DNA from: Asparagopsis taxiformis | Taxonomy: Eukaryota > Rhodophyta > Florideophyceae > Bonnemaisoniales > Bonnemaisoniaceae | Length of the DNA: 64,000 nt | Direction of reading: 5' to 3' | Assembly (NCBI GenBank): GCA_030407315.1 | Contig: JALQPE010001955.1 | Span: 62,001-126,000, forward strand | Shown: one piece after another, positions 19,945 to 43,837 of the stretch | Numbering within the stretch: position 1 is the stretch's first letter | Layout of the letters: each line of letters opens with the position of its first letter | Translations under genes and position numbers: made by a program | The notes under the pieces: generated by a model | The model's input: the letters and a program-made list of their open reading frames with translations, nothing else | What the model was told of the DNA's origin: nothing | Database searches by the model: none

Positions 19945-20059
19945 TTTTTAGGGAAGAATAAAATGAATAACCAGATGCATCACATATGAATTGTACACTC
20001 TAGGGCGGTGGTGGATTGGTGCAAAGTAGTGGGGAGAGGATCTGAGAGGATGGAGGGAG

Positions 20060-20500: not shown

Positions 20501-21167
20501 TTAAGGTTAAGTAACCAACTTTAGGATGTCCAGAGGACCTGCTCGTTGTAAGGAATAAGGAATATTGATCAACTGACGAAGAGGAAGCATTTTGAATCGA
20601 CTAGGGTAGGAACGCAATGAGATTTGGTATGCAAGAAAACTGAATCGCAGTAGTGAATAGGTAGTTGAAATGAATTCATATTGATGTTCTTTGGTGTATT
20701 GTCCATTGGAGCACATTGAAAACCATTTATATGATCACCGTTTAAATAGTCTATGAATCCTTTGCAGCCGAGTACGCCAATAGGAAGAAATTCAAGCAGT
20801 GGCCTGCACGGGAACCGTTTATTTGTGAGTAGCAAAAGTTAGTGTAGAAATGAATTTTTCAGACTTGTAGGAGAGGTGGATCGTAGTAAATGTATAAAAC
20901 TCACGTAGAATCGATTGATAGGAATCAATGGTACGGAAGAAGAAGCGAGGTGGAGAGTGTGGATGAAATAGGTTGTTGGAATATGAATGATAATTGACGT
21001 GGTGAGGTAAACGGGTTCGATTGCATTATATGCGCTAGAGGTACATACTATTAGGTGTAGATTGATGGAAAGGGCTAAACGCTTTGTGGAGGTATCAGGA
21101 TCAGGTAGAGTCAGAGGTGCTGAGCGGGTGCAGCGTAAGGTTCATCAGGACTGAACGTAGGTAGGGA
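20501..21167. other. Upstream region of the ParB/dioxygenase gene
   Basis: About 670 bp with no gene or repeat I can support. It presumably contains the promoter of the 21,168 gene; no clear TATA box stands out. Confidence 0.5.
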
Positions 21168-24100: not shown

Positions 24101-24428
24101 AACTGGTCCTCTCAACTCGCCATCATATTTCATGATGGCTGCTGGTGCGGATGGGTTCATCATTCGTATCGCCAAGTTCAGCCATGTGTGCCTAAGTCAT
24201 CCAGCGAAAGACAAGTACCGCGTGCCAGTGACGAACGTGCGCATCCCACCGTATTCCCTGCTTGTATGCCGAACGGACGTGTATCACGGAGGAATGGGAT
24301 TCGCGGAGGGTCGTTCTTCGGTGAGGTACCAGCATCCTATCCGGTCCCATCTATCACTGCGAACTTCCAGGGAGAAGTTGCTACAGCCTCCCTTCAATGT
24401 CAACTACTGGGAGCGTTTAGATATCTGA
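21168..24428 (+). CDS. ParB-like domain + 2OG-Fe(II) dioxygenase-like protein, 1,086 aa, intact
   Basis: A ParB/sulfiredoxin-fold N-terminal domain lies at about 80-150 (VDPRKVKF, LVRPGRVNELASIFMDRGF, then CIDGSHRIAAL with D-G-x-H-R at 138-142), followed by a helical ParB-like region (ASVSIADNVCAVIEF). Residues 450-650 are Glu/Ala-rich coiled coil, then basic tracts (KKRRRED, KKSRVNARKR) likely act as nuclear signals. From about 790 comes the dioxygenase unit: MKYYITEEDID, ELGYVVLQDIFSS, then the iron facial triad H968-T-D970 and H1040 (YHGGMGF) with Arg1049/1053 as possible 2OG ligands. The order H-x-D...H...R is that of double-stranded beta-helix oxygenases; it could act on modified DNA bases (TET/JBP-like role) or on protein. 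The ATG at 21,168 is the first; 21,306 (MGDNS) has a better context. It is flanked by palindrome clusters B and C. The substrate is unknown. Confidence 0.75.
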   Translation: MSCPDSIREEAERREAHSEVPQLWISSSTQHLNREPIERTEIAGITMGDNSIMNTTAEKSNSPSAEEKSITIAQYSSSKVQVDPRKVKFPTVTSRLVRPGRVNELASIFMDRGFSTTGTMITVCKMEDNEGDEFYCIDGSHRIAALQLCLEKYSGKNRDSLELVWVQQLIAPNGRLIFDALEVLKLSLEANIQTHDVASVSIADNVCAVIEFLRFSNQMDLPVVRLIPILKEVSYILPSDRNRSENSYRQYINIAKGFNRTDSVAFVYWSSIPSVYNALDRNREIEDARTEGRDPDFSRIDSADMYGCVLDLVNNAIFRNGTDGRGTRDKEWFQWFVLEMTASWTRMRRKRGLVRNIGSGSPFTMRTWLLALLAIYDMAEVVRKWLNSATMEEFVRTDLAAENAKEVGDNDHRIGERIVFVLVDFHDDVVDSSSLRTKNGMFTNSFYDKLEYATGTKAMQETKAEEERERNRMTPGEIEKALVDGAKAEDEEAPTAAEQGNNSTEKETVETSGPVQAEEGVSAEAQVEQEVSAVVEEEQEITPNVVAEEVIPAVATKAIEEAPLSTPKEAEDRPAAAKEGGQERPATRLAAAEKREAERLAVLQKEQERLSASRAERESRARDNSPGRIVREDLPQGRKQSGDTQSLDINLDNSGRMDIDTPGQQAGDAQNRSVILKLRIRTPETYSTSPAEVDKENSGRSRSSGGSGDENESRLDKKRRREDTSAKFSEPNTPDDNIEIGPPREKKSRVNARKRTTGEEAPLFTDEQENSLPDRTFAEDIPEKLPLCVPSNSRMKYYITEEDIDTIRTEIMEAAAGYSTLVCPLGSCESQQYFSYQRRMIDELGYVVLQDIFSSTTVGAATHELFTQMASTFQGTTSGSSASQKNPWKPLRPKDSTGVFKTDRKSICDDLEQESARQYRNKLILELGKAICAENLKLGFGREEAVVFPETGLRLILTAEGSQEQLMHTDVPVREGTGTGPLNSPSYFMMAAGADGFIIRIAKFSHVCLSHPAKDKYRVPVTNVRIPPYSLLVCRTDVYHGGMGFAEGRSSVRYQHPIRSHLSLRTSREKLLQPPFNVNYWERLDI

Positions 24429-24674
24429 TGAAATTAGTTCTTAATAGCATTCTATGGCAGGCATCAAGGCCGCCTTCAAGTAAACGATGAAAGTTAGGCT
24501 AGTACATGACGTTTGCGTATGTAGACGGGTCAGAGATATACAATACTCAATTTAATATGAGAAGGGGAGGAAACTATGGTGGGCACTACTAGAATAGAAC
24601 AAGGTAATATCGCAGTCGTCTTTGGTTACAACATTGAGGTGAGGAAGGCTTACAGATGATGCAGTTTCGCTGGG

Positions 24675-24960
24675 GTGCTGACAGCAAAGTCATCGTTACG
24701 ATGACTTTGCTGTAAGAAATCAAATCATTACAGCGGCCACAATTTTTTACCGGGTAAAAAATTCTTGCTGATTTTTTTACCCGGTAAAATTTTCTCACCA
24801 CTGTAATCAAACCTTTCCTTACAGCAAAGTCATCGTAACGATGACTTTGCTGTAAGCATCCCGGGTAAACGGCTTCGGCTGTAAGCGGTTGGGAGTTTCG
24901 TCCGTCTCCCACCCTGGGAAGGGTGAGAAGGGAAGTGTGGAGCCGGGAACATCGTACAAC
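24675..24960. repeat. Palindrome cluster C, two 39-bp palindromes plus right foldback arm
   Basis: Two palindromes (centres TTA near 24,694, TAA near 24,836), an ACCGGGTAA-type palindrome between them, and on the right the outer arm seen in cluster A (GGCTGTAAGCGG, TTCGTCC, GGGAAGGGTGAGAAGGGAAG). Immediately downstream of the intact ParB/dioxygenase gene. Confidence 0.9.
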
Positions 24961-25440
24961 GATGGTTTGGACGACTGTTGACGGCTCTGGGGAGCACTCT
25001 GCGTCGTGCAAGCCTGGTTTGCGCTGGCTGCACTACCTGGTATTGAACGGTTCTGTGCGCAAAGTTTACTCATGAAGGAGGTAGGGTGTTGTGTACCACA
25101 CCAACCATAGTTACTAACATTTGCAGTGTACTCTAGTGATGTAATTATTATTCTAGTTTCTAGCTATACAATGATATTAAGTAAGTCAGATGTGCACAGA
25201 GCATGGTCTAAGCCTAGCACGGTAGAGAAAGATGGAAGAAAGATTGAAGGGTAGGCATGCAGAGGTATGAAGGCAGCAGTATGTGTAGACTATGGCAGTG
25301 GTAAGAAAATATTTCATGCACCAAAGGGTGGGCAGAGTGACATTAGAGAGGTGGTGTGTAGGGGGAAGGTAGGTGGAGATGATGAAGGAGGACAACAGAA
25401 ACGAGAGCGAGGGTTGAGACCAACGGCTTACAGATGGAGC
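24961..25440. other. Spacer between palindrome clusters C and D
   Basis: About 480 bp without a recognisable gene. The first part (to about 25,060) continues the cluster C flank and resembles the outer arm of cluster A. Confidence 0.5.
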
Positions 25441-25745
25441 AGTTTACCAGGGATGCTTACAGCAAAGTCATCGTTACGATGACTTTGCTGTAAGGAAAGG
25501 TTTCATTACAGTGGCCATGATTTCTTTACCCGGTAAAAAAATTCCTGGCCGCTGTAATGAAAACGTTTTCTTACAGCAAAGTCATCGTAACGATGACTTT
25601 GCTGTCAGGAAACAAAACATTACAGTGGCCATGATTTCTTTACCCGGTAAAAAAATTCCTGGCCTCTGTAATGAAACGTTTCCTTACAGCAAAGTCATCG
25701 TAACGATGGCTTTGCTGTAAGGATCCTTGGTAAACTGCCTGAGCT
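25441..25745. repeat. Palindrome cluster D, three 39-bp palindromes
   Basis: Centres near 25,472 (TTA), 25,588 (TAA) and 25,700 (TAA, with one arm mismatch). The inner palindromes have TTTACCCGGTAAA. It lies 210 bp upstream of the start of the second ParB/dioxygenase gene, so it may also overlap promoter sequence. Confidence 0.9.
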
Positions 25746-25954
25746 GTAATTGTCGTACAACGAAAAGTGATGTGGAAGGTTCGGATTGGTCAACCGCTGA
25801 ATATCATTACCAGGGTGTATACTAATAGGAATATGTCAGATCTCTAAGTTTCGCCTATCTTACTCAGCTTACGCAGCAAAACAGCTTGTCGTTCAGATCT
25901 TCTTCTCTCTTTCTCAATCTTTCACTCTTCGTTTGTCAATCACTCACCAAAGCA

Positions 25955-28900
25955 ATGGCTCAACAATCCCCCAACGCTTTCGACCGCCAGGTGCGCTCTG
26001 CCAGCCGCCGTGACAACGATTCTCCCACTCCTTCTCCCTCTCCTTCTCCCTCTCCTTCTCCTTCTCTGGCCCCCCCTGTCCCCATGGACGTTTGCGAAGC
26101 TGCTGCAGCGCTGACCCAGCTCAGCCCAGCACCTAAGCCCGTCCCCTCCCCCCCTTCCGCTTCCGATCCCGCGGTTGTCCCGACAATCGACGCTGGCGTT
26201 CCCGCAACTCCGCTTCCGGCTCAATCTGCCGAAGCGGCGCCAGCCGTCGAGGGATCTGGTGCTCCTCTGCCTAGCTCGCCTGCTCCGGACATGATCATCG
26301 CGTCCGGCAGCGACTTGGCAGAGGATGCGGAGAAGGTCGATGATCACAACGCTCGTGACATCGTACCGAACAAGCCTCTCCGCAGCACCAGGCTGGCCTA
26401 CCCTGGCACAGTGCCCATCCCGGTGGATGTGGACTACGACATAAGTCCGGAGAGCTGCCGAAACATTCCAGTCTTCATTTCCCCTCTGGATGTTTCTCCT
26501 CCGGCAGTCGTGTCCAGGGTGGTCAGGCCGCATCGCGTTGATGAGTTGAAGAAAACGTTTCTCACTCAGGGATTTTCCGTGATTGCTTCACGCGTGTCCG
26601 TCTGCGAGGTGATTGATTCCAATGCAAAAGTACGACTGCAATATGTCGATGGATCTCACCGAGTGACCGCGTTGAAGGCCATTCTCGAGTCGGCTGGACC
26701 TGCTCCTGCGAAGGACAGTCCAGAGTGGGAGGAGTTTGTCAAGTCTGACATCTACCGTCGCTTTGGAACTATTCCAGTCGACTTTCTCCTCCCACCGACT
26801 CGGCTTGGCCGGGATGTCTTCTGCTCCGAAGAAGTACTCCCGCTTTCACGGCTGATGAACTTCCACACCCACAATGTCAGCGAGGTAACAGTTGCTGACA
26901 ATGTGTGCTCTGTGATGGAGTTCATCAATATCCACCGCCTGGGAAAGAAGAAGATCGAGCCGACCGTTCAATACATAAAGAACGGAAAGCGCTGAGCTGG
27001 ATTCGTCCGAGACAGCTCATGCGCTACGTCTCGATCGCGCGAGGGTTCAAGACCATTGAAAGCCCTGCTTTCAAGTACTGGTCGAGCATCCCGAACAGGC
27101 CGGAGTTCGTGCAGTTCTCTTCGACCGAGGATCTGGCTGGGTGTACGGTGAACTTGTTGTTCAATGGGTCGTTCAGGAGTGCTCCGGATGTGCAGAAGTG
27201 TTTCATCCTGGAGATGACGGCGCGCTACACTTGTAGCCGTCGGTCGGCCGGGCTGAAACCGTACTCGGTTGGTACCATTGGGCAGGAATGGATTGCTGGT
27301 TTGTTGGAAATCTTCGGGTACGTGAAGGAGGTGGCCGAGTACTGGAACGTGTCGGATGTGTTGAGGATGCTGGATGGGTCAATTCCCAGCGTGGGTGACC
27401 CGAGCAAGAGCTTCGACATTCGCTCGCGCGTTGTCGAAGTTCTTGCTCAGATGGTCCCCAAGAAGGGGTGCTGGGCAGACTTCCGTCCCAAGGAAGGCCC
27501 CCCCGATGGTTACAGTTACGAAAATATTTTTCCCCGTAAGAAGTCTGTCTTCGGGAAGGACGCCAGGAAAATGCTCCTGCGCGTCACTGGGTACCGCGAC
27601 ATGAAATGCGGAAACGCTTTCACGCGATGTACCCAGACATCCCACATGCTGCGCTCCCAGCCACATGTGGTGATGATGCCCCCATCCCTTCCTCTTCCAA
27701 TTCCTTGCCCATCCCTTCATCCTCCATTCCTTTGCCCCCACCACCTCAACTGGAATCTTCCAGCAATTCCGAGGTTGCCCCTGTTCCTGTCTCTACCCCT
27801 GCCGTGTCGGCATCCTCCCCTGCGGTGACCCCGGTCAAGCCGACTGCGCGTGGTCCCCAGGATGGCAGCGAACGCTCTGGTCCAGTTTCCCACGCCGGGA
27901 CTGGTACCCCCAACCGTCCTGTCCAAGCCGCGCAGGAGCAGGTCTCACCGGCTTCGCAGCCTGAGCCTGCGACTCCGGCTGCCGAGCAGCACCCTGCTGC
28001 TCCGGCCCCCGCTGTCGAAGCTTCCCGTTCTGCATCTGCTAGCAGTTCGGGAAGCTCCAGCGATGACAGTTTCGTCCCTTCACCATCCGGTGGGGTTGGA
28101 CAGAAGACGGTTGCGAGGATTTCGACGGAGGGCCCTACTCCCGAGAATGTGGTCGAGGGCAGCAGTGCGAAGGGCGGTGCAGATCCTGACGAAGATGTCA
28201 TTGAAGTCAGTGATTCTGCACCGCCCGGAGTGGAAACTTCTGGGAGGAAAGTGATGCCCAGAAGGAGTACCCGCCTGCAAGCGAGTCGTTCCGGTCGTGG
28301 TGGAACGGCGGGTGGTGCTGTGGAGGTCGTCGAGCTGGAGAGCGCCCCCGAGGATGCGGGTGAAAACTCCATCCTCGGGAAGCGTAACTTGGAAGCCGCT
28401 TCTGCGACGCCCGAGCCTTCTACCAAAAAGAGAAGGCTCGGTGAGACTTCATCAAAGTCGTCGTCAAAGAAATCCAAGTCGGCTTCCCGAGGTCGCTCTC
28501 GGGAGCCGGTTCTCCAGTTCGACGACGCCCAGGAGAATCCCATTCCCGACAGCATCGTCGATGAGAATGTGGCCGCCGTTCTCCCCAGCGCAATTGCGTC
28601 TGGCAGCCGGATGAAGTACTATATGGAAAGTACGACGGTGGAGACGGTTCGGGCGGAAATGAGGGCGGCAGCATTCCAGGCAGCTGCATCGCCGGGTGCT
28701 GAGGATACGGTGGTGGACAGGTACTTTGCGGTGAAGAAGGCATTGTTGGAAAACTTGGGGGTTATTGTTATGGAAGGCCTGTTGGCATCGTCCACGGCTG
28801 GTAATGCGACGCATGAGTTGTTCGGTCACTTCGCTAGGCAGTTCCCGCTGGTTGAGGAGGTTGAAAAACCCTCCCAGCAGTCTGATTCTAACGATGACGA

Positions 28901-29600
28901 CAGGGAGCCACAGGACGAGCCGCCAGCTTTCGCAAAGCCCGGCTTCGATCCTTCGCCGTGGCAGTTCATCCACAACGTGGGTGATGCGAAGGACCGCATC
29001 GATGGTGGTCGTGGGCGCCTCTCTCTGCCGCGGCGTGAGTTGTGCGACAAGTTGGAGGAGGGGAATTTGGAGATGTATAAGAACAAGTTGGTGGCAGAGC
29101 TTGCTCTTGGTGTTTGTGCGGAGTTCTTGAAGTTGGGAATGGAGGGTGAGGATCCTGTCTTCTTCCCGAAGACAGGATTGCGGCTGCTTCTTACAGCAGA
29201 TGGGGCTGCGGACCAGGATGGGCACACGGACTTCAAGGTAGCGACGAATAGTGTTGGAAGTCCTACCACGTCTCCATCATATTTCATGATGTCGAGCGGA
29301 GCCGATGGGTTCTCTATAGTAGTTGCCCCTTATAGTCATGTATGCCTGGCCAATCCGGACGCCGATATGTGGAAGGTTCCCCCTCTCATCTTTTGGGTGC
29401 CACCCTATTCCGTATTGGTTGGTCGCGGTGACCTTTACCATTACGGGGTCGGCTTCAGCCGAGGAGATCTTCCTGCAGGCGAGAAGTTAGTCTATGGCCT
29501 GCCCACGCGCGGCCACATCTACTTGAAGACGGAGAAGGACGTCCTCACGGACCACATCCACACCGTCGAATATTACAAGTACGATAGGAGCAATAGATAG
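25955..29600 (+). pseudogene. ParB-like + 2OG-dioxygenase paralogue split by two frameshifts
   Basis: The ATG at 25,955 (AGCAATGGCT) follows a pyrimidine-rich leader. Order: Ser/Pro-rich N-terminus; ParB-like domain (VVRPHRVDELKKTFLTQGF, DGSHRVTALK near 26,650; VADNVCSVMEF near 26,895); frame change near 26,980-26,995; helical middle with WSSIPN and GTIGQEWIAGLLEIFGYV; second frame change near 27,600; Ser/Pro/Glu-rich linker with a basic nuclear-type stretch (SSKKSKSASRGRSR); MKYYMESTTVETVRAE; LGVIVMEGLLASS; then HTD near 29,224, YHYGVGF near 29,440 and a downstream basic region. The pseudogene at 9,765-12,098 keeps one frame across the second break, so a base was probably lost here. Without the indels it would be about 1,200 aa, colinear with the 21,168 protein. 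Sequencing error is possible; otherwise the gene is inactive. Confidence 0.82.
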
Positions 29601-30030
29601 CATATCAGAAGTATTAAAACCTATACTACTGTTCCCTGCTATAAAGTTCTGTCTTTCTCATCTCAACATTGTTACCTTAGCCCATTTTTCAGTTCTCATC
29701 TATACATCTGTCCTTCATCTCATAGTTTAGTGCTACTCAGCAGATTGCTTGCTACTTTTTAATATTAGTCTACAACGTTATATGATTTTACTAGCTAGGC
29801 CGTAGGGGGAGACTAGTTTCAACCCTTGACAACGCGCAGATTTCGACTACGAGAGCCGTCACTGTGATAAATTATTGGTAGAATTTTCGTCTATCTTCCC
29901 ACCTACACTAGGCTACCTATATATATACAGGGTATAACCTGAACAGAGACCACGTGAGGTAAAATACTCCTGAGAGCTGCTCACAGCCGTACAGACCTTT
30001 GCTGAGCAATTTACCCGACTTCACACTTCG
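29601..30030. other. 3' flank of the ParB/dioxygenase paralogue
   Basis: Similar to 12,099-12,420 downstream of the 9,765 pseudogene (TATAAAGTTCTGTCTTTCTC, TTTTACTAGCTAGGCCGTAG) and, from 29,734, to 57,339 onward. A TATATATACAGGGTATAAC stretch near 29,920 is repeated at 57,525. No gene is seen. Confidence 0.6.
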
Positions 30031-30500
30031 CTTCTCACCTTTACCAAGATGGGAGAAGGACGAAACTCCCTGCTGCTTACAGCCGAAGCCGTTTACCAGG
30101 GTTCCTTACAGCAAAGTCATCGTTACGATGACTTTGCTGTAAGAAAAGAAAACATTACAGCAGCCACGATTTCTTTACCGGGTAAAAAATTGTGGCCGCT
30201 GTAATGATTTGCTGTAAGGAACCGTTTCCTTGCAGTGGCCAAAGAATTTTTTACCGGGTAAAAAATCAGCAAGAAATTTTACCGGGTAAAAAATTGTGGC
30301 CGCTGTAATGTTTTGCTTTCTTACAGCAAAGTCATCGTTACGATGACTTTGCTGTAAGAAAACGTTTCATTACAGCGGCCACAATTTTTTTACCCGGTAA
30401 AGAAATCATGGCTGCTGTAATGATTTGTTTTCTTACAGCAAAGTCATCGTAACGATGACTTTGCTGTCAGCATCCCCGGTAAACGGCCCGCACTGTAATG
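30031..30500. repeat. Palindrome cluster E, three 39-bp palindromes
   Basis: Left foldback arm (GATGGGAGAAGGACGAAACT, CTTACAGCCGAAGCCG), then palindromes centred near 30,122 (TTA), 30,339 (TTA) and 30,450 (TAA). A fourth, collapsed to a stub GATTTGCTGTAAGG near 30,207, sits where a TAA-centred unit would be expected. It lies between the convergent 3' ends of the 25,955 and 30,775 genes. The right foldback arm is absent. Confidence 0.9.
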
Positions 30501-30774
30501 GGGTGACTGCTTCTCCTACATCGCTCTCTTACTGGTGTTCTACATGCTGCGTTGCTACACAATTTCGCACTCACATCTTTCTAGTTTCTCTCCTTTTCGT
30601 ATCCATAGGTATAGCAGTAGAAAAGTGGATAGTTTGCACTCCAGGCCGCAGATGCCTTCCTGCAGTCATGTCACGATTGTTGTAGTGTAGTCTATAATAT
30701 CTAGCGCTCTTGGAAGATGATGCACAGTCTATTGTCTCTGTCAATGCGTGTTTACTCAAATCTATCAAAGTAGC
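30501..30774. other. 3' flank of the ParB/methyltransferase/SET gene
   Basis: Nearly identical to 58,031-58,304. No gene is seen; it presumably holds the 3' UTR of the minus-strand gene. Confidence 0.5.
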
Positions 30775-33700
30775 TCAGTTAGCTGGCCAATATTTTCTAC
30801 CATAGTCAGCAAATATCTCCTCATCAGCTTCAACGTCTCTGGTCAGAACGACCTTGACAGCATGGGGATTCTTGATATTTGAAGCAAAGTCCGGTTTGTC
30901 TATGGCATCGCCTTGTCGAAACTCGGCTGACTGTGTTCGACTCACCTCGGTCGCTTTCTCCGTTCCGTCAATGACCCGACAATCATTGAGGTAGCTGGTA
31001 CAATTATAGACCGCTGGAACGAGCCAGACCTTCCGAACAGGTGCACCCCTCCCTATGTACGTGGTTTCCAATTCCATGTTGTAGTCCTGGAACCTCTCTC
31101 CTGTGCACCCAAATCCTTCCGGGCCGTACATCACTGATCTCTGCGGTTCCGAGTCTCGAATCTTCGCATAGAAAATCGTCCCGTTGTACCAGCCAATGAC
31201 CGTCCCCTTCTTCAGTTTCTTCGCCGCGAATACGCCAAACCCACCACCTCTTACCTCCGATTGCGAAACATAGACACCGTAGAATGCGGCATCAGCAGCC
31301 AGAATCGCGTCCGGGTCTATGCTCCAAAACGAGTGCATGTCCTCGGCCGGCCACTGGTCCATAGGCACCCCGCTCAATCTGTGAAGCATAGACCCGTCCT
31401 TCTTCATTGACGCAACGAACACAAGCAGATGGTTCGGCAATGCTGTCACAGCAGGTAAACCTTCTGGTGCATCTGAGATGTGCTTCTGACGAAGCCTTGG
31501 AGCTTTTCCTGTGACCGGTACCGACTCGTCCCCAAGAATACTCTCCACCTCACGCTGCAAGATCCCCCCATATCGCCCGGCTTTCACCTCACTGACGAAA
31601 GCATGCAGTATCCACTCCTGCGATGCATCGTGGCACCTTTTTTCCTTCTCACACCCAATGAACCGACGATACGTACCATCCCTCAACGTCATACACGCTA
31701 TGGCTGTGCTGTATGTTCCCGAGAAGAAATCCATCACGATATCGTTCTGCTTCGAAAATCGTTCCAGAAGCTCACGAAGAGTGGTCAACGCCTTCTGCTC
31801 ATGGCGCAGTCGGTTGTTCTGCCCATCGTATTGAGCTTCACCAGCCGACAACCTCGGAACGTTGTCAATCGCGTTGGTGAACCCAGGGTGCCTCGATATG
31901 TCCGGATTGTGCAACCTGTAATCCACCATATCGTATGCAGCCATACCCTTCCCCCGCTTATACGCATGGATAACGAAATCGTGCATATTATGCAGTGTGC
32001 ACGTTTTCGTCGATGGATTGGACGTAAAGCTGTGTGGTCGGCGAGATAGCACGACTGGAACACTGTCCACAATCATCTTGCCAGGCTCGGCATTTCTGAT
32101 TGCATCCATCCATGCCACGAGTTGGCGCACGCTGGAATAGATTAGAGCATGACCGCCAGGCCGAAGAACTCGAACTATTTCACACGCAACACTCGCCAAC
32201 TCTTCCGGCTCCAGAATATCGTACTCCGAGTTTTCTCTGCCGCCTTCCCGCCTCGTGTTGAATGGAGGATCAGTGAGCACAAGCTGAACACTGTCCTCCA
32301 ACACGCCATCTTCCAGGAAACTAATTTTGTCCTCCACCTCTTTGGCTACATCAGTGGCGTCACAATTCACAGTGTGAATGTAACGCCCCATCACAGCTTC
32401 CAGCTTGGTGACATATTCCGGCTTGGATTCCTTTCCGACGTCAACGAGCGGTGCTTCTGTAGGCGATACAGTGTCAACCTCCATAGCGTCATCCTCGGCC
32501 GCACCTTCTCTTGTTGCTGTTTCGCTAGCAACCGCCGCATTATCGTCCTCTCCACCACCGCGCTCCAGCCTAGCCTTCTTCCTCTGTGGCTCCAGACTAT
32601 CCTCTTCTATATCCTCGCTGCCATTGTTTGGCACTGCTGCGGATATTTCCATCTGCGCAGGTGCACCTTCAAGGATGCCAGGCTCGGGCGTATCCTCAAG
32701 ACTGTGCAACTCATCCATGGTCAGAGGAAGCTTTCGTTGCTCTCGGGTTCGCAATAACCAAGCCTTCAGCCTCCTCTGACCATCCAGGGCATGAGACGTG
32801 TTCAACTTGGCTCGCATGAACGAGTTCAATCCGAACTTGTCAGGAGTGTCGAAAAGCAAGGCTCGAAGTCTCTGCATCAGCTGACCACGCTCGGCGAACA
32901 CATTCACCTCAGTGACACATTGGCGTATCGACAGCAGGAAGGCGCTTGTCAATGATCGCAGCCTTGCATCCACAGCCACTGGAAGGTCGGCACAGAACCC
33001 GTTTTCACTGTCTACAGTTTTCGGGACAATGGTCAGGTTTTTCCGATGCTCCTCGACCGCGCAGCCATCAGACCGATTCGGGAGTGACCTGAAGCAAAGG
33101 CTCGCAGGATCGAATACCATGAACGGCCAGCACATCGATTCAACATCCTCATACCCCAACACTCTTGCCCCGGTATCCCACGCAGCTAACACACGGTCGA
33201 CAACAAATCCAAGCTGGTTGGCTTGCGCACTGGATGTTGCAATTCCAACCATTCCACCACCACCAATGGCCCCGGATGTGGCTCTGGCCCGCCTAGATGG
33301 CACACTGCCCATCTCCTTACTGCGAATAGCCAAGATACACTGGCACATCATAACCATCAGCCTCCTGAACCGCTTCTGGCTAGCCTGCAAAGAATCTTGC
33401 ATGTCGGATGTAGCGCCGTCCAGAAAGTACCTGCTCGAAAGCAGTTCGCGGTTCAGTGGAGAGGACAATTCTCCGCGGGGTGTCTTGCCAAACATTTCGA
33501 CGGCACGAGAACTAGTCACCCCCACCTGTTTCGGAAACTCAACCATCCTCGGAGAATCACCCATCTCTGCATTGAGTCCCCATGCATGACAAAACATTTG
33601 CCACAGACGCAAATCAATCGCACTCGAATCTTCTGCTCGGTGATACGGCCGAAGCACAGCCAGGATAGACATGCATGAGCTGTACTGCGGTTTACCACTC

Positions 33701-34242
33701 AGGCTTGAAGCAATTTGGCCGCTTGGATCGCAGGATTTGATCCAGCCCAACACATCGGCCATCCTCACAGACGAAATATGAGCGTACTTGTCCTTTCCGT
33801 TTTGGACCCAGTACTCGTCTCTGAGATCAACGGCGATCATCAGATACTCAACAAACATCATGCGCCTTTGCAGGCCTGCAATGTCGTTGGATGTCGTCGC
33901 TCTCACACGGTCCAGCACAACAGCAGTACTGCTGTTGGTGTCCGCCACGATAGACTCTTCTCGCATAGGAATCGTAACGCCAGGAGGAAAGACGCCCTTC
34001 TCCATTCCACGTACAATTGCCATGCAGCGGTGCGCTCCATCCAATATCTCCAGAACGCCTTCTCGAAACCTGCCAGTCACGGGATGAGCTGTGTCATAAC
34101 CGCTGTTGCGAATGCTCTCCATGAGCGCTTCCACATGACTTGCATCAACATCGCGAATCGATACGAATTTGCTGACTTGATTGGGGTCGATGAACACCCA
34201 TCCGTCGTGCTTTTCACCGTGATTGTGGAACGTTCCTTCCAT
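30775..34242 (-). CDS. ParB-like + DNA N6/N4-methyltransferase + SET domain fusion, 1,155 aa, intact
   Basis: Start chosen at the ATG at 34,242 (MEGTFHNH); the frame is open a little upstream but without ATG. The ParB-like domain at about 10-95 has SIRDVDASHVEALMESI and LDGAHRCMAI. A helical region follows, then an acidic/basic linker (about 500-600). The methyltransferase has motif IV LTDPPFNTRR at about 655-665, LRPGGHALIYSS after it, and motif I DFFSGTYSTAIAC near 837; IV before I is the beta-class order, and DPPF favours adenine N6 over cytosine N4. The SET domain at about 985-1,155 has GGGFGVFAAKKLKKG near 997, YLNDC near 1,084 and DEEIFADYG near 1,147. It would deposit a DNA mark and a histone-lysine mark from one chain, guided by the ParB-like part. 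It is divergent from the Tudor-like gene (514-bp gap) and has a near-identical copy at 58,305. Confidence 0.88.
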   Translation of the reverse strand: MEGTFHNHGEKHDGWVFIDPNQVSKFVSIRDVDASHVEALMESIRNSGYDTAHPVTGRFREGVLEILDGAHRCMAIVRGMEKGVFPPGVTIPMREESIVADTNSSTAVVLDRVRATTSNDIAGLQRRMMFVEYLMIAVDLRDEYWVQNGKDKYAHISSVRMADVLGWIKSCDPSGQIASSLSGKPQYSSCMSILAVLRPYHRAEDSSAIDLRLWQMFCHAWGLNAEMGDSPRMVEFPKQVGVTSSRAVEMFGKTPRGELSSPLNRELLSSRYFLDGATSDMQDSLQASQKRFRRLMVMMCQCILAIRSKEMGSVPSRRARATSGAIGGGGMVGIATSSAQANQLGFVVDRVLAAWDTGARVLGYEDVESMCWPFMVFDPASLCFRSLPNRSDGCAVEEHRKNLTIVPKTVDSENGFCADLPVAVDARLRSLTSAFLLSIRQCVTEVNVFAERGQLMQRLRALLFDTPDKFGLNSFMRAKLNTSHALDGQRRLKAWLLRTREQRKLPLTMDELHSLEDTPEPGILEGAPAQMEISAAVPNNGSEDIEEDSLEPQRKKARLERGGGEDDNAAVASETATREGAAEDDAMEVDTVSPTEAPLVDVGKESKPEYVTKLEAVMGRYIHTVNCDATDVAKEVEDKISFLEDGVLEDSVQLVLTDPPFNTRREGGRENSEYDILEPEELASVACEIVRVLRPGGHALIYSSVRQLVAWMDAIRNAEPGKMIVDSVPVVLSRRPHSFTSNPSTKTCTLHNMHDFVIHAYKRGKGMAAYDMVDYRLHNPDISRHPGFTNAIDNVPRLSAGEAQYDGQNNRLRHEQKALTTLRELLERFSKQNDIVMDFFSGTYSTAIACMTLRDGTYRRFIGCEKEKRCHDASQEWILHAFVSEVKAGRYGGILQREVESILGDESVPVTGKAPRLRQKHISDAPEGLPAVTALPNHLLVFVASMKKDGSMLHRLSGVPMDQWPAEDMHSFWSIDPDAILAADAAFYGVYVSQSEVRGGGFGVFAAKKLKKGTVIGWYNGTIFYAKIRDSEPQRSVMYGPEGFGCTGERFQDYNMELETTYIGRGAPVRKVWLVPAVYNCTSYLNDCRVIDGTEKATEVSRTQSAEFRQGDAIDKPDFASNIKNPHAVKVVLTRDVEADEEIFADYGRKYWPAN

Positions 34243-34755
34243 GGCGAACAAAGGTAGAGTTTTTAAGAAAGGGATAGTTGGTTGCTGCTTGACCAGGGTG
34301 GCGCAAAGCAGAAGTTGGTTGTTTAAAACAAAGTGTCAGCGAGTGGTAGCACTTCGGTGGCTGTTTCCTTTCCACCCCTGTCCGAACCTTTACAAGATAA
34401 CTACATCGACTGTTAGCTCAATAATCAATGTAATACTAAAGTAATACTCAAAATATTTTTCCATGCAATTTATTGGGCCCCGTAACATCTCTAAGCGTAT
34501 CTTTGTAGTCCAATCGTATGCATCCGACATTCACTTCTAGAACGATTATTCACATCAAATTTTATGCTGCAATCAGTTCATGGCAGACATCATCCACACT
34601 GACGTGTCAATTTTGTCAATTGTCCATTCTATTTCTACACCACCTAAACATCTCTTCTGGACCTTTCCAATCCTCCTAGTATATACTACTCTTTAGCAGA
34701 AGGTAACGGTTAGGCTTTCACTAATACAACAATTCTATCCCATAGCTATCCCAAC
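34243..34755. promoter_or_regulatory. Divergent promoter region of the ParB/MTase/SET and Tudor-like genes
   Basis: 513 bp between opposed start codons, conserved with 61,774-62,286 with only a few substitutions. TAGTATATACTAC near 34,677-34,689 is about 70 bases before the plus-strand ATG and is a TATA-like candidate, itself palindromic. No other gene fits here. Confidence 0.45.
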
Positions 34756-36117
34756 ATGCTTCCTCTCGCTCCAAACGACGTTATAGAAGTTCAATGGGAA
34801 CTTCGGCCGTTTGGGAGGAAACGAAAAATTGTGTGGTGGTCTGCAATCGTCAAGGAAATTACTCAGGTCAAGACTGAAACAGACCCATTCCTCCATGCAT
34901 TGCTCGAATACAAAGCTGAATATGGTTTCGACTCTACCCTTTCTCAAGTCAAGATTTCAGATCGTAACGAGCTCGTCGACAAGGATTCCGGAAGGGTTCT
35001 CCCGTGGCGAAGTGGTGAGCTTCGCAGTATGGACTCACCTGCATCCCCAGCAGAGAGAGACCCGGACTACGGCATTGACCACACTCGCCACCGCCACCGC
35101 GGCATCCTTCAAGATTGCACTGCGGATCAAATGAAGAAGACCATAGCAGAAATGCTGGCAAGATTGGAAAAGCTGGAGTCAGCTGCCAAACATCCTCTTC
35201 CCCCTCCATTCGATTCCAACAGCTCCATGACCTCCTCTGCTCTGACTGTATGTAGCATTCTGTTTCAGAAGCTTGGTGTGTACACGGACAAGCCCCTCTC
35301 CCTCCGGATGACAAAATCCGAGCACTCCAGGGGAATGCGACAAACATCGCAAGAAGAAATCAGAGTACAGGCTGACTGCTCCCTTGCTCAATTCCGCACT
35401 ATTGCCATTCAATGCAAGGCGAAAGAGAATCGTGATGTTCTCTTCCTGCCGTCCTTTGAGGACATCACCTTTCCCTCTGGAAATGAGTCGGATCTTTCCA
35501 TCATTTTCCCCACCTTTCAGGCACTATGTGACTCCATAGGTACCTCGCAACACGGGTTCCAGAAAATATTGGTGAAGAGCAGGGCGGAACGCGATGGAGG
35601 CAGCTCATCGATTGTCCGAATTTTAGGAAATCTAGTCGACGTTGACTGCTCTCATGATGCTCCTTCTTCCGCATTTCTCGTCGGCTCATCTGCTTACGTC
35701 CTGTCCAGCCCAGACCAACGTATGACAGTTCTTTGCAGAGACTCCTACGAGTTTGACCATGTCAACAATACATTTTTACATCCCCTATGTCTTAGCCAAC
35801 TATCACAGTCTAGCATCGTGGACTCTTTCCACCTACGTGATAAGGCTACTGTTACTTATGGAGCAACGTTTTCGTTACTGTGGAGACGTATTCAGCGCCG
35901 AGCTTGTTACAGCACTTTCCAGCCTCTATCAACCGCAGAGACGTTTGGTACACTACATCTACGCTTACCTTGCTGTATTTTCAGTGGTACTACTATATGC
36001 CAGGAGCTTGAAGACATTGGCTATGAGGCTATCTCTCGTCTTGGCTTCAATGCGGATTCAGACACTACCCACCCACCCTCTCCTCCACCTGCCACCTGCA
36101 GTCCGGAGCAAAAATGA
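34756..36117 (+). CDS. Element X protein with Tudor/Agenet-like N-terminus and coiled coil, 453 aa
   Basis: ATG at 34,756 (CAACATGC). Residues 1-60 read DVIEVQWE..., then KIVWWSAIVKEI and ALLEYKAEYGF, a V-x-V-x-W ... W-W-x-A-x-V ... L-x-Y pattern like the small beta-barrel of Tudor, Agenet or PWWP methyl-readers. This is suggestive only. Residues about 118-140 (QMKKTIAEMLARLEKLESA) form a short coiled coil. The remainder is a globular region I do not recognise (SLAQFRTIAIQCKAKEN, SIVRILGNLVDVDCS). It shares a divergent promoter with the ParB/MTase/SET gene, so it may read or support the marks that enzyme lays down. The copy at 62,287 keeps the full frame with only a few changed residues, which suggests selection or very recent copying. 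Confidence 0.6.
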   Translation: MLPLAPNDVIEVQWELRPFGRKRKIVWWSAIVKEITQVKTETDPFLHALLEYKAEYGFDSTLSQVKISDRNELVDKDSGRVLPWRSGELRSMDSPASPAERDPDYGIDHTRHRHRGILQDCTADQMKKTIAEMLARLEKLESAAKHPLPPPFDSNSSMTSSALTVCSILFQKLGVYTDKPLSLRMTKSEHSRGMRQTSQEEIRVQADCSLAQFRTIAIQCKAKENRDVLFLPSFEDITFPSGNESDLSIIFPTFQALCDSIGTSQHGFQKILVKSRAERDGGSSSIVRILGNLVDVDCSHDAPSSAFLVGSSAYVLSSPDQRMTVLCRDSYEFDHVNNTFLHPLCLSQLSQSSIVDSFHLRDKATVTYGATFSLLWRRIQRRACYSTFQPLSTAETFGTLHLRLPCCIFSGTTICQELEDIGYEAISRLGFNADSDTTHPPSPPPATCSPEQK

Positions 36118-36392
36118 TAAAGCACACCTATCCGTAGTTATCCTGTTCCTGGGTATTCCATTCTAGAGCTCCTGTGGCCATCAATTTCTAGTAAAGACGG
36201 ATACCCTCGCCCCTTCCTACTTCGACTATTCCACTACCTGTCTCTGCGCTTTTCCTTCGACTTGACACTATCGTCTGACTGGTTTCCTGATGTCTCGCAT
36301 CTATCTACTTCCATCTATTACAAAATTCACCTCAACAGAAATTTTATTTCTTCATTCTTCGTCTACTACACCGAAACTGGTTTCATCCGATA
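36118..36392. other. Spacer between convergent 3' ends
   Basis: 275 bp between the stop of the Tudor-like gene and the stop of the coiled-coil gene; nothing else recognised. Confidence 0.5.
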
Positions 36393-37919
36393 CTACTCCC
36401 CTTCATTCTCGATTTCATCATCGACGAATACCTTCACATATTCTGCATCTCCTCCGTCCTCTTCCATAGACCTGAAGCTCTCCTCCAGCACTGATTCCCC
36501 CCCATCGTCTACGTTCAGTTCTTCATATCTATCACGCGATATAGTCAAAACCTCCTCATTCATGAACCGACTACTCACCCGCTCCCCGGGAAGAAGCAGT
36601 TTCACTGCTTCATTGATTTCCCGGATTTGCGCTCCTTCCACCTCTGTTCCACTTTGAAATTTCAAAATCGTTCGGAACCCGTATGCAAGTATGTAGATGA
36701 ATTGCAAGGAGTATTCTGAACGTCGCAGGAACATGTTCTTATCAGAACATTGCGTGTAGGCGACTGCAAAGTTCAGTGCAACCTCTACTAAATTGATCCT
36801 CCTAGTCAAAAACCTCTTGTCCGGTTCTCCAATTATTTGAACTTCGTACTCGACTTTGAATAGCATTTCTTTTCGCACTGCAATGAAGTCGCGAAGAATC
36901 TTCATATTCTTGTCATCCATTGCTGCACGCTCCGCTGCATTCATTTTCCTCTGCGCCGAGTACAGACTTGGAACTGACTCAATGTCCAGCCCACCGTCGT
37001 GCAAATGATGCTCCATTCGGACTGAACCTTGAAACCCACTGTATAGAACGAATCCAAGATCTCGGATGAACCGGTTTCGCACATGATCTCTGGACTTGTT
37101 CATAAACCCGGTCACTGCCGTGAGTGCCGATTTCGTCACAGTGATGCCTACCTCCTTTCTGTGCAACGGCCCATTGTCTCCAACCTTTCTTCGCTTCTGC
37201 TTTCGAGCGGCCCCATCACTTCCCTCGGACGTCCCATGCATTCCATCCATGCGAGCAGAGTCCGTTCCGCGAATTGTCTCCTCAATGGTCCCGGTAGTCA
37301 CATACCCCCGCGCCCTCCACCGTTCGATACCTTCCGACGTTCCATTGGAGCTGGAACGGTCTCCTCCCTCTCTGAAAGAATTGTTTTGACACGTATTCTT
37401 GATTAAAGAGGTCACAACTTGGCAGCGCAATTCAATGTGGTTCCGGCCGGCAAGCGTCCTATTGAACACATCCTTTCGCTCATTGCTCTGCCTGGCGAAC
37501 ATCAGCGTATTGATTAGCTGGCATCCGTTGAAATGCCTATCCCTCTTATCCACCATTGCCTTCGTGTACGTTGGAACAACAGCACACAGCACAGCACACA
37601 CCATTTCGAACGTGAACGATTTCTCCGCATCCTGCGCAATGCGGAGACGTTCCCTGTCCTTCTCGGAGGCGATCTTCTTCGGATGTCCTTGTCCCTGGCT
37701 CAGAAGCCCATCGACGATGCTCTTGACCTCCTGCATATCGGTGTTTAGCATGGAGACAGTCTTGGCGACATTTCCGAGAGTCTCGCGTAATTGAATGGTG
37801 CTCTTCTCGACGGCATCCATTTTATCACTCAGGGCTTTCAACTCTGCAGTGATGTTCGAAAAGCCCTCACGCGTTATTTCGGAAAATGCGGCGATGCTTA
37901 CGGAGGTTTCGGGATTCAT
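36393..37919 (-). CDS. Element X coiled-coil protein, 508 aa, unknown function
   Basis: Start chosen at the ATG at 37,919 (MNPETSVSIAAF); the frame extends 28 codons upstream without ATG. Residues about 10-100 are coiled coil (FSNITAELKALSDKMDAVEK, VSMLNTDMQEVKSIVDG), followed by a basic KKIASEKDRERLRIAQ stretch. The middle contains a Cys/His-containing helical region and a disordered Gly/Ser/Arg-rich insert. The C-terminal domain (RNRFIRDLGFVLYSGF, VEYEVQIIGEPDKRFLTRRI, SLQFIYILAYGF) resembles the C-terminal part of the 49,287-51,570 protein of element Y by eye. It is the last gene before the right terminus. Decayed or partial copies lie at 1-6,759 and at the window end. No family is recognised; an accessory DNA-binding or transposition factor is one possibility. 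Confidence 0.7.
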   Translation of the reverse strand: MNPETSVSIAAFSEITREGFSNITAELKALSDKMDAVEKSTIQLRETLGNVAKTVSMLNTDMQEVKSIVDGLLSQGQGHPKKIASEKDRERLRIAQDAEKSFTFEMVCAVLCAVVPTYTKAMVDKRDRHFNGCQLINTLMFARQSNERKDVFNRTLAGRNHIELRCQVVTSLIKNTCQNNSFREGGDRSSSNGTSEGIERWRARGYVTTGTIEETIRGTDSARMDGMHGTSEGSDGAARKQKRRKVGDNGPLHRKEVGITVTKSALTAVTGFMNKSRDHVRNRFIRDLGFVLYSGFQGSVRMEHHLHDGGLDIESVPSLYSAQRKMNAAERAAMDDKNMKILRDFIAVRKEMLFKVEYEVQIIGEPDKRFLTRRINLVEVALNFAVAYTQCSDKNMFLRRSEYSLQFIYILAYGFRTILKFQSGTEVEGAQIREINEAVKLLLPGERVSSRFMNEEVLTISRDRYEELNVDDGGESVLEESFRSMEEDGGDAEYVKVFVDDEIENEGE

Positions 37920-38449
37920 GTTGAACTTGCAATTGGAGTTTGCTAAAAGGAGAAGTTGCTTTGAAGGAAGGATGTCACGCTTAGTACAGCAGTGTTGTAG
38001 CAAATATCATTCCAGTGGATGCATCCATCCTGTTCTACTCTACATAATAATAATGCTTCTCAGTGCTCCGTAACGGTTATTTTTCATAATTTAGTGGTGG
38101 ATGGTGCGTATTCTTTCCTTTGCCACCACCCACGTCCTGTGCATACCACACCTCGCTACCAGACTGACGTCTCCTACTAGACACTTTCAATGCAAAGATA
38201 GATAGGTATAATTTGAAATGCTAAACTCAACATATTATAGCTACTCTGTACATTCTCTCCTTACGGTGAGACAAACCAGATATGTTCTGTTCTCCCAATC
38301 TTCCTTTCTACAACGTCCTATTCAGCATCTAGCTTCCCCGCACCCAACTATCTGTAAAGCACCATCACAATTAATATAGTCGTATACCACACACCATTCC
38401 AATATTTACCTTCACACCAACACTATGCTCCATATTTCCTCTAAGTCCA
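37920..38449. other. 5' flank of the coiled-coil gene inside element X
   Basis: Collinear with 6,760-7,310. No gene is recognised. It carries the likely promoter of the minus-strand coiled-coil gene. Confidence 0.5.
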
Positions 38450-38826
38450 CTCCACCAGACAGTGTTGTCAAACAATGCACGGTACTACCCGCAGACAATA
38501 CAATTTGCTATCTACACTACTGTCTACAGATTTCCCCAGACAGTGCAGTAATACAGTACAATGTATTGTCTCAGACAGTAAAATGTACTGTCTGCACATA
38601 CTGTCTGGCGGCAACACTTCCGGACAGTAAAATTTACTGTTCTGGACAGTAAATTTTACTGTTTTTGGTACTGTCCAGATTTCGTGCCAGTTTACTGCTG
38701 CAGCAGTATTCTGAAATTTCCAGACAGTAAATTTTACTGTCTCCGCGCACTGTCTTGGCCAGACAGTAATTTTTACTGTCTCAGACAGTAAATTTACTGT
38801 CTGTTTTCATTCTCAACACCGTAGTG
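38450..38826. repeat. Right subterminal repeats and terminal inverted repeat of element X
   Basis: At least ten inverted pairs of CAGACAGTAAA/TTTACTGTCTG type, many forming the palindrome ACAGTAAATTTACTGT. The sequence ends TCAACACCGTAGTG at 38,826, the complement of the left terminus. The ACAGT core is shared with the left-end arrays, as expected for subterminal motifs bound by one protein. Confidence 0.85.
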
Positions 38827-39575: not shown

Positions 39576-42500
39576 CTAGCCGTCGGAAAATTCTTCTCCG
39601 TCTTCGTCCTCATCATAATCAGGATCTCCCGGCAGAATAGGCATGAACGGGACCCCACCAATTGTGTAGTCCATAGGCTTGCGTTCTGGCTTGCGTTCTG
39701 CCGTCTTCATCCGCATCATTCCGAGCTGCCCTGTCTTCGGCCTACGATCTTTCTTGACCGGGATGGGAACAACTGTCTTGTGGCGAACATTGACAGGTCC
39801 CGGTTGACTTTGCCTGGCAGACCGGCGCGGAGCATTGGGGATTACTTCTTCTTCGAATCCCAACCGCCTGATGAAACCAAACGAAACATTGTCGGGAATC
39901 GGATACGACGCATTCCTGAAATACGTGTGATACCTCGTTGTCGTGTGTGACACTACTCTGTCGACATGCCCTGCCCCGGCATGTTGTACATGGCCGTGAC
40001 CGATGAAGACTGAACGTGGCGGAACGATTACCTTCTTCAGCTTCATCGCCTTGGCGTACATATCTAATTCCAGCGCTTTGGAAAAGACGTACTTGTGGGA
40101 CCCTGGACACACCCAGATAGGGAATGGGTCATCTCCGTTGGCAATAACAAAGTAACCCGGAAGTTGATCTTTGCGGTCGCGAGGAGGAACAGGGAAATCA
40201 TTGTGTGGGACCTGCCGAGGACACCCCTTTCCCGTTATCAAAAACCGTCCCCCAGATGCCGGCATGACAAGTTTTTCTCCCGGTAAACCGCACTCCTCCA
40301 GCCCTATCAGCCGGACAAGGATTCCCAACCACACATCCAGCAGGGCTCGCCGCTCACAAACTTGAACCGGTCGATATGCGTCTCATCGTTCTCGGCATAG
40401 TCAACCAGGCAGTGGCGCGTAGACGTGAAGCGAGCCCTCCCCTCATTCCGGTTCTTCTCATCTGTTTCATCGTCCCCAGTATTGACAATGGGACTCCACA
40501 GCTGCCGGTTCCCAGGGTCCTTGTGCACCTCCTCCCCCTCCCATGTTCCCAAGAAGTACCGAAACAATTCCTGGTTAGGAATTTCTTCCATGAGACCCAA
40601 GTCAAATGGGAACTTGTCCGACGCATCGAGGTAGCTTACATCCGCGAAATTGTGCATCACCGTATACCCTCGCTCGTTGATTTCCGTTCGGCAATTGTGG
40701 AAGTACGCCATACCAGTGCCGGCCTCATACGAATCCTTCCAGCTTGTAGACATTCGCGCAACCTGGGCGAAGTCCAGCCTCGAGGGTAGAAAAGTCGATG
40801 TAGGCTCACACATCGCCTTGGCAGCCATCTTCCACGCTGCGAAAAACATCGGATAGATGGTGTCGATCTCGAAAACAAGATGACGAGCCCGATGTTGCTC
40901 CGGAATATGCAGCCCCTCAAACACAGGGTCCATCGCCACTTGCTTCAAATACCTCACCTCTCTGCCCTCCTCATCGATTTCCACACTCTCCAATAACAAC
41001 CTGAGCTCAATCGGGGGCAGACAGCCAACCCTCACCGATGCGATGACGTCCGCGGGACGCTGCGCCAGATGATGCCCTTCAGCTCGGTCTTTGACTTCGA
41101 AATCGTCAGGAAGAGATGGCATACGGTCGTCGAACAGGAGGTCGTGTTCAGAAGGAGAGTCACGAACGATGTAACCGTCTTCATCGACTTCGACTCCTTC
41201 CGGAACAGTGAGTGTAATTGTCACTTCGCGGACCCCCTTGCTTTTGACATGGCCCTCGTCTGCACTGTTGTTTTCTTCCTCGTCCGAAACGTTATGGACA
41301 GATTCTTGGTTGGAGGGAGTCGCACCAGCACGTTGGTTATCTTGGGGGACAATCTCAACGGCAGAATCGGGGGAACGGGCGGAGTCTTCGTCAACCTCAT
41401 CACCGGAAGCAGTGGCTTGTTGTTGATCGGTGGGTTTATCAACAACGGCCTGCTCTTCTTCCCCGGCGGATTGTTGTACCACAACCGGCTCTTCTTCCTC
41501 GAGTCGTGTGCTCCCCGTCGAGCGAAGTCGCTGTGAACGGCGGCGGATGCCATGCGAAGCAGGCTCATGTTCGACATTCCGCTGCTTCTTGTGAGTGAGT
41601 CTCACATTGGCAGCAGAAGGGCGGCGTTTGCGTCGAGCCTTAGTCTTCTTCTTCAATGTCGGATTGAGAAACTCTTTCAAGTTCGTTTCCAAATCCTGTA
41701 AACGCGTGGTTCTCCGTCGCATTCGAACCTCACTGCTCCGGTCGTCCCCTCTATACATTGCAATGGCATTGGTGAGATGCCATTGCAACTCCTTCGGCTG
41801 CTTAACCGACCCAATTGCCATCTCTGTGCTCAGAAATGACTTGCGCATAATACTCTTTGGGCGCCCAAACGCAGCGTACAGAGAATTTGCTATTGCAGTC
41901 ACGCGACGGAAGTATGTATAGAAGTCGTTCACGTCAAAGCGTCCATCCGGACGTCCACCATGAGCAGGGTTCAAGTACTCCGAAAGACCACGCAAGACGA
42001 AGACAAAGTTTTCTTCCAGCAACTCGCGCACTATCTTGTGGTCCAGGTGCGTTATCCCAATCTCGTTGCGGCGCTCGGAATTGTTCAGCTCACGCAACAC
42101 GTCGTCGAGAACAGGATGCTTCAGCGTTGCTATAGCCAAACGCGTCCACCGCCGGGCCGTGTTCGTTGAATTCATCATCCCCATGAACTGCGCCTCGAAC
42201 AATGTTCGGATGACATCAGACTCACGCAAGTCGCCAGCGTTTTCCACGTTATTTGCAACAGCAATCGTACGGATGAACTGCTGGATGGACGACAAGATTC
42301 GAACCAGGGAGCGCTCCGTCAGTTGCGTCCCAGTCGTATGGTTCGACTCTGCACTCTTGTGGATGATCTCATGAGGCTGAAGATCACTGTCGTCCTTGCG
42401 GCGAAGGTAGTACACATCCAGAGGCTGAGTAACCCAGCGCAAGCGGTTTGCGTCCTGTGGAAGCTTGGTTCTGTGCATACGGGTGAGGCGCGTGAAGTCA

Positions 42501-43549: not shown

Positions 43550-43837
43550 GGTTGTTGAGTTGGAAAGGAAAAGCGATGGTTGACGTTGACGTATTGGAGT
43601 GATGTGGATGGTAGGTTTCACGTTGCTTGAAGAATGGTCGTGAACGCCAATCGCTGGAAATAATAACACAATACAACCGAAATTTTGTTAGGTACAAACC
43701 TATCGTGACCGCTGGAATGCAAGACAGGCAATCGAGATGTGAGTGTCCGTTCGGAACGGGCCCGAGTCGGGCTCTCGAAACCTGACGAGGTGGCGTGAAG
43801 CAGGCAGTGTCCTTGATGTGTAATGTGTTAAAATTAC

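Follow-up and report, generated by a model that had tools for sequence, protein, structure and literature searches.

We analysed a 64,000-nucleotide stretch of the Asparagopsis taxiformis genome (contig JALQPE010001955.1, positions 62,001 to 126,000; hereafter the window), in which a transposon, element A, carries a gene for a three-domain fusion protein. The gene (30775..34242, minus strand) is a single uninterrupted frame for 1155 aa, with an ATG at 34242 and a stop codon ending at 30775; an in-frame TTG lies just upstream of the ATG, at 34251. From the N-terminus, the protein has a ParB/sulfiredoxin-superfamily domain (residues ~14-104, 33931..34203, with LDGAHR at 67-72), a beta-class amino-methyltransferase (MTase) domain (residues 652-875, 31618..32289, with DPPF and then DFFSGT) and a SET domain (residues 1001-1148, 30799..31242, with GGGFGVFAA, YLNDC and FADYG), all encoded on the minus strand. 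Domain searches confirm that this is one transposon-encoded chain in the order ParB-like, N6/N4 DNA methyltransferase, SET.

The MTase domain is called by the Pfam N6_N4_Mtase model (E=2.3e-16; 60.8 bits, cut-off 26.7) and has the beta-class features, namely the Pfam fold and DPPY/F ahead of FxGT. A Foldseek search with its model returned TTHA0409 (7.5e-11), CcrM (2.4e-10) and M1.HpyAVI (9.2e-10), with the bdelloid N4-methylcytosine (4mC) enzyme lower. Because of the DPPF/DPPY motif and these nearest structures, N6-methyladenine (6mA) is judged the likelier product. Pfam SET matches the whole protein at E=4.1e-6 and a 171-aa piece at 9.3e-8; the score of this piece (32.9 bits) and that of the SET domain of a second transposon family, element E (34.6 bits), are both above the cut-off (22.4). 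A profile of the SET domains of the two families matched EHMT2 (1.5e-5) and KMT5A (1.6e-5) in the Protein Data Bank (PDB) as whole-sequence scores, single EHMT2 stretches being weak. Both families retain GxG, presumably the N motif of the SET fold, together with the Asn and the Tyr of DYG/HYG, which we take to be the catalytic Tyr.

For the N-terminal domain, Pfam ParB models were silent on the whole protein at E up to 0.1 and on the N-terminal 250 aa at E up to 1. In PHROGs, the same 250 aa matched phrog_4272 (1.6e-6; unnamed) and phrog_1033, annotated as 'ParB-like partition protein' (0.0018). Eight aligned ParB-like domains, including that of a viral ParB-MTase protein (L036), have R30, L40, G48, D68, G69, H71 and R72 invariant, and their profile matched SbnI (5.9e-4) and sulfiredoxin (0.0036) in the PDB. 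These are its best matches, rather than partition ParB; Noc, at 0.15, is below significance. The profile leans partly on L036, because Pfam does call ParB_N in that protein (1.5e-7). On the profile match and the DGxHR-type active-site motif, we assign the domain by sequence to the ParB/sulfiredoxin superfamily. An earlier note on this DNA, made from its letters, had named profile searches of the three segments and structure prediction as checks. The first bore it out, with MTase and SET called by Pfam and ParB by PHROGs and the PDB profile instead. AlphaFold was confident for the MTase core (most blocks 82-94, the variable middle 34-65) and of low confidence for the ParB region (44-59, with the expected strand-helix-strand-strand-helix order) and for SET (about 30-51).

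The genome also holds several ParB-methyltransferase families without SET (L003, L011, L013, L031 and L032, on contigs C2077, C2012, C197 and C100). Cys/His-rich C-terminal stretches take the place of SET in the L011 and L013 proteins, and a Retrotrans_gag ORF (1.6e-6) lies near L032.

Element A is a CACTA/Plavaka-like transposon of 25,292 bp (13535..38826, plus strand) delimited by paired ends, with terminal inverted repeats (TIRs) CACTACGGTGTTGA (13535..13548, plus) and TCAACACCGTAGTG (38813..38826, plus) identified by end comparison. At up to 2 mismatches, the left end (24 bases) has 1106 matches genome-wide and the right end (21 bases) 795, with no match to the reversed pattern of the former or to the control for the latter. 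Exact 2-bp target site duplications (TSDs) occur in four of nine compared end pairs and in none of the other five, including the window copy; some of these five are possibly not true mates. One copy, on C74 (25,264 bp, TSD gc), contains MTase and SET matches. Another, on C436 (19.4 kb, TSD ga), has the same ends, apart from one base in the right end, and an internal deletion; it is without part of the transposase and part of the first dioxygenase-like gene. Taken together, the profile support for all three domains, the terminal repeats, the copies elsewhere and the TSDs substantiate the claim of the earlier note that the three domains sit in one transposon-encoded chain.

The gene order in element A is a putative transposase, two ParB-dioxygenase-like genes, the fusion gene on the opposite strand and two ORFs of no recognised family. 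Two collinear but weak BLASTP matches (E=0.010 and 0.078) link the putative Plavaka-like transposase (16141..19944, plus strand, 1267 aa) to that of element E, and a Pfam search to E=5 returned nothing for it. The first of the two ORFs (34756..36117, plus strand, 453 aa), likewise matched by nothing in Pfam to E=5, also occurs in copies L012, L014, L016, L019, L020 and L029; the second (36393..38003, minus strand, 536 aa) has sub-cut-off Pfam matches only. These ORFs, and one in element E (50065-51570), recur in several copies of A and E and belong to the transposon gene sets.

A second, left-truncated copy of element A (57339..64000, plus strand) is 99% identical over 30278-36469 and runs beyond the window; a frame change breaks up its fusion gene, and its right end was located in L010. 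At window position 7433, the left end of one element-A copy sits within the right end of another, a nested insertion. Element-A right and left ends 130 bases apart, in the same arrangement, were found at C20:85041-85215 and C214:6108-6282, perhaps as haplotype copies. A 43-base tandem repeat of about five copies (56991-57209), also present on C436, lies beside the junction of element E and the second element-A copy.

Element E, the second family, encodes an MTase-SET fusion of 1068 aa (45420..48626, plus strand; Pfam MTase 3e-15, SET 9.8e-7) that lacks ParB and is 26% identical to the fusion protein of element A. Also encoded are a ParB-like plus putative dioxygenase protein, recognised by motif alignment and split into frames 40307-43669 and 39576-40334 (39576..43669, minus strand), a 501-aa ORF of no recognised family in a Pfam search (50065..51570, plus strand) and a Plavaka transposase of 1013 aa (51648..54689, minus strand; PF18759, E=3.9e-24, 85.9 bits, cut-off 26.3). 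In L010, the ParB-dioxygenase-like gene is a single frame across the junction and past HND, with a stop before the second His. The element-E fusion is present at seven other loci (L021-L027), where the match extends to the ParB-dioxygenase-like gene in six, to the 501-aa ORF in six and to the transposase in four; the fusion segment is inverted in L022, L025 begins at a contig end and L027 is without the transposase side. Because these loci repeat the fusion with the same neighbours, the MTase-SET join is not a one-off. Comparison of the loci did not resolve the ends of element E; a 38-base perfect palindrome (GTACGTGCGCGAATCTTGATCAAGATTCGCGCACGTAC) lies at 55291-55328, near its probable right end. 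By its transposase, element E is assigned to the Plavaka/CACTA-like (CMC) transposons, and element A is placed with it by TIRs and TSD, the match of its predicted transposase being weak.

The recurrence of the fusion leaves practically no room for an artefact of assembly or gene calling that joined separate genes. The region is repetitive and nothing else was found to favour such an error, whereas the intronless single frame recurs across dozens of contigs and element E shows the MTase-SET join too; with these independent copies and the second family, we regard it as ruled out. Simple prokaryotic contamination was also ruled out, given the Plavaka transposase, the SET domain and a 141.5 Mb genome with 13 phycobilisome-linker matches, which indicate a phycobilisome-bearing alga. 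An Rfam search of the window gave no match, and a sigma-70 promoter scan was at chance level and carries no meaning for this DNA.

The family has amplified very recently, and the gene has been kept. Copies were scored as the best matches of longer candidate lists, so intact copies are favoured. Among the best 150 of 1977 candidates for the element-A SET domain, 149 are identical over 171 aa and one is 99% identical; the frame around the match reaches 1000 aa or more in 82 and falls short of 900 aa in 61. For the MTase, 145 of the best 150 of 2605 candidates are stop-free within the match and 101 have a frame of 900 aa or longer; the 2605 pool all ParB/MTase families of the genome, including proteins without SET. 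A genome search with Pfam SET (best 150 of 1661) gave 10 much stronger matches, presumably host genes, and 140 weaker, transposon-like ones, 73 of them in frames of at least 900 aa. Of 10 other element-A copies chosen for frames of 900 aa or more, LDGAHR, DPPF and FSGT are kept in all 10, GGGFGVF and YLNDC in nine, and the DYG end with the catalytic Tyr in eight (missing in L015 and L029); the final SET Tyr motif is kept in six of seven element-E copies. The earlier note had taken failure to find two of the three folds, or loss of catalytic residues in most copies, as fatal to its claim; instead, the domains are supported by profiles and the motifs are kept in 8 to 10 of 10 copies.

In copies preselected for frames of 900 aa or more, the pooled ratio of nonsynonymous to synonymous polymorphism (pN/pS) is 0.34 for element A (11 sequences) and 0.42 for element E (8 sequences), or 0.39 and 0.44 with each variant counted once. 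By region in element A, with the L015 and L029 tails removed, it is 0.25 for SET, 0.40 for MTase and 0.26 for the middle; the counts are small, each of the four regions named here and below having 7 to 23 amino-acid changes. These values, well below 1 outside the N-terminus, and the keeping of the same fusion in two families that are 26% identical make it very doubtful that the enzyme genes are passenger cargo, captured and hitchhiking but no longer needed, with the palindrome arrays described below being satellite-like or terminator hairpins. Such cargo would fit the loss of pieces in some copies (such as parts of the transposase and first dioxygenase-like genes on C436), the broken frames in several copies and the 61 of the best 150 SET matches under 900 aa.

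The first partner gene in element A encodes a ParB-like plus putative 2-oxoglutarate (2OG)-Fe(II) dioxygenase protein of 1086 aa (21168..24428, plus strand), with DGSHR and HTD...H...R recognised by motif alignment only. The second (25886..29600, plus strand) is broken into open frames 25886-26995, 26905-27828 and 27606-29600; in another copy (L114), it is a 1253-aa frame with DGSHR and HTD. Alignment of three paralogous partner proteins shows a C-terminal region with an invariant H-x-D and later H and R. HxD...H...R is the signature of 2OG-Fe(II) oxygenases. We treat the dioxygenase assignment as a lead, not an identification.

The spaces between the genes of element A contain units of ~111-114 bases with a perfect palindrome, P1 (ACAGCAAAGTCATCGTTACGATGACTTTGCTGT), at their core. 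Arrays were identified by repeat and motif scans at 20058..20486 (4 exact sites), at 24648-25005 and 25426-25750 (24648..25750; 4 exact sites together) and at 30075..30506, where the dioxygenase-like gene and the fusion gene face each other with their 3' ends (3 exact sites). Exact sites number 16 in the window, of which 11 belong to element A, 3 to a fragment on its left side and 2 to the second copy, and 8363 in the genome, with none for the reversed control. P1 is present in 10 of 12 other loci with the element-A fusion and in none of the seven element-E loci, and 885 kb of viral and prokaryote loci have no site. Element E has its own palindrome, CTCAAAAACATG-N{4,14}-CATGTTTTTGAG, with 5 sites in the window and 7549 genome-wide (reversed control 0). 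That each of two families with ParB-like proteins has a palindrome of its own recalls ParB-parS; terminator or satellite roles are alternatives.

The family specificity of the palindromes could also suit a factor in transposition itself, for which the bacterial ParB-methylase Bce_0392, described as having nicking activity (PMC5512222), offers a parallel. ParB would nick or bind DNA, the MTase would mark donor or new copies for transposase timing or family specificity, and SET would act on the transposase or another non-histone protein. The element-E fusion lies near the transposase in the window and at four of seven other loci. However, the palindromes are internal, and the ends of element A have a different motif (ACAGTAAATTTACTGT-like), and we consider such a role quite unlikely.

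Judging from sequence, we prefer a reading on whose truth we are evenly divided: that the fusion serves a CACTA/Plavaka-like transposon as an accessory enzyme for modifying chromatin, part of an anti-silencing kit. The MTase would put an amino-methyl mark on DNA, preferably the element's own, and the SET domain would methylate a lysine residue of a histone or of some other protein close by. The ParB-like domains may help to address the fusion and its dioxygenase-like partner to the element, perhaps via the palindromes in the manner of ParB-parS, and the partner would remove marks. The net effect would be a change in the silencing state of the element, allowing its continued expression and transposition. 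We infer that DNA and histones could be marked at the same locus by the one protein, as the earlier note had suggested. A more far-reaching version is improbable in our view: each family would be a complete self-addressed epigenetic system, whose ParB-like domains load at thousands of family palindromes, deliver a dual DNA/protein methyl writer and a mark-editing dioxygenase, and so set the chromatin identity of the element genome-wide.

The same enzymes could act in the opposite direction, with MTase and SET repressing the element's own copies as self-silencing or copy control (a temperate transposon or self-exclusion). The bdelloid 4mC methyltransferase N4CMT and SETDB1, which reinforce silencing on behalf of the host, are a precedent (PMC8885841), and EHMT2, H3K9-specific by its molecule name, is among the SET structures closest in sequence. 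Self-silencing nevertheless seems unlikely. We prefer anti-silencing because the partner resembles a dioxygenase, which points to mark removal or remodelling, and because the large, very recent amplification of the family is unlike tight self-control.

Several observations weigh against the anti-silencing reading or parts of it. ParB is absent from the element-E fusion, and two of ten element-A copies (L017 and L029, which have an identical altered start) are missing the first 51 residues, so that part of the ParB domain is gone. Constraint is weakest in the ParB-containing N-terminal 250 aa (pN/pS 0.85), a value that three junction codons in the two shortened copies push upward. The sets used for motif retention and pN/pS were both preselected by frame length, as noted above, and the pooled pN/pS retains the out-of-frame tails of L015 and L029. 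P1 is absent from two of 12 fusion loci (L014, and L029, which is cut off by its contig end), and its arrays are intergenic, one between two 3' ends and none at the fusion gene promoter. The dioxygenase-like region matches nothing in Pfam and no relevant sequence in the PDB, and its AlphaFold model (pLDDT 34) is not usable for fold. In place of the NHS motif of SET domains, the two families have NDC and NDP, with Asn kept and His replaced by Asp. There are active SET-like PRDM enzymes without the NHS His.

Relatives of the fusion were sought in viruses and prokaryotes by motif and frame scan. DGxHR precedes the MTase in one (L036) of the 79 viral relatives listed and is absent from all 43 prokaryote relatives listed; of these 43, four lack a DPPY-type motif in the frame used for the scan, and one (L120) has DGLRR. 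In viral contigs, 79 stretches matched a SET pattern and none was confirmed by alignment; a search for the dioxygenase-like region likewise gave 15 stretches with none confirmed. A tblastn search of phages returned four records matching the MTase part only.

If active, the fusion would allow a transposon to write its own chromatin marks on DNA and protein, and such a single-chain writer would be a natural analogue of laboratory-built targeted dual epigenome editors. The fusion is apparently under selection in a transposon with more than 1000 left ends. By its example, transposons would be seen to combine, in one mobile unit, DNA methylation by a bacterial enzyme with methylation of the histone type and perhaps the removal of marks. 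The fusion would also provide a test case for 6mA or 4mC as a genuine element-directed mark in a photosynthetic eukaryote, and the family-specific palindromes offer a candidate DNA-addressing code. A contig scheme of the A. taxiformis mbb (bromoform) cluster lists site-specific and adenine-specific DNA methyltransferase genes (PMC12115072), which could be transposon genes of the present kind.

The earlier note knew of no described transposon protein with this domain order. A limited literature search agrees, having found no DNA-methyltransferase-SET fusion in a transposon, with subscription papers and Repbase reports mostly beyond its scope. The exact fusion stands as unreported within that search; the note had left unnamed the precedents for transposon-borne SET and TET genes. 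In Phytophthora, HarbingerS and MuDR elements carry SET genes, and in fungi, Plavaka elements carry TET dioxygenases and other DNA transposons TET/JBP, as cited or described in PMC12730594; ParB-methylase fusions are likewise already known (Bce_0392; PMC5512222). What appears to be new, as far as the limited search extends, is a DNA transposon that encodes a DNA-methyltransferase-SET fusion headed by ParB.

Bce_0392, as described in PMC5512222, and L036 resemble the fusion in joining ParB to an amino-methyltransferase, L036 also in the order ParB then MTase, but are prokaryotic or viral, and L036 is without SET. The N4CMT of bdelloid rotifers, in the account of PMC8885841, also couples an N6_N4 MTase of bacterial type with a eukaryotic chromatin domain; there, however, the partner is a chromodomain, a reader and not a writer, and the enzyme is a host gene acting on transposons. 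The Plavaka giant repeats of Amoebidium (PMC11244446) are similar in that a Plavaka transposase flanks large clusters of genes with few introns, but the stress there is on tyrosine recombinases, and the main text contains neither 'SET domain' nor 'ParB'. The HarbingerS and MuDR elements of Phytophthora are DNA transposons that encode a SET histone-methyltransferase-like protein, as in element A; they are of other superfamilies, and the description cited in PMC12730594 names no DNA methyltransferase or ParB fusion. TET+ Plavaka elements of fungi, as presented in PMC12730594, share with those described here a Plavaka-type transposase, a linked dioxygenase or dioxygenase-like gene and a 2-bp TSD, and theirs are thought to counter silencing. 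The termini of element A are CACTACGG, in contrast to TGT..ACA or CATCA..TGATG given there for fungal Plavaka. Unlike the fungal elements, those of A. taxiformis reside in a phycobilisome-bearing alga, pair the transposase with a dioxygenase-like region that matches no Pfam family, and add to it a DNA MTase-SET fusion and ParB.

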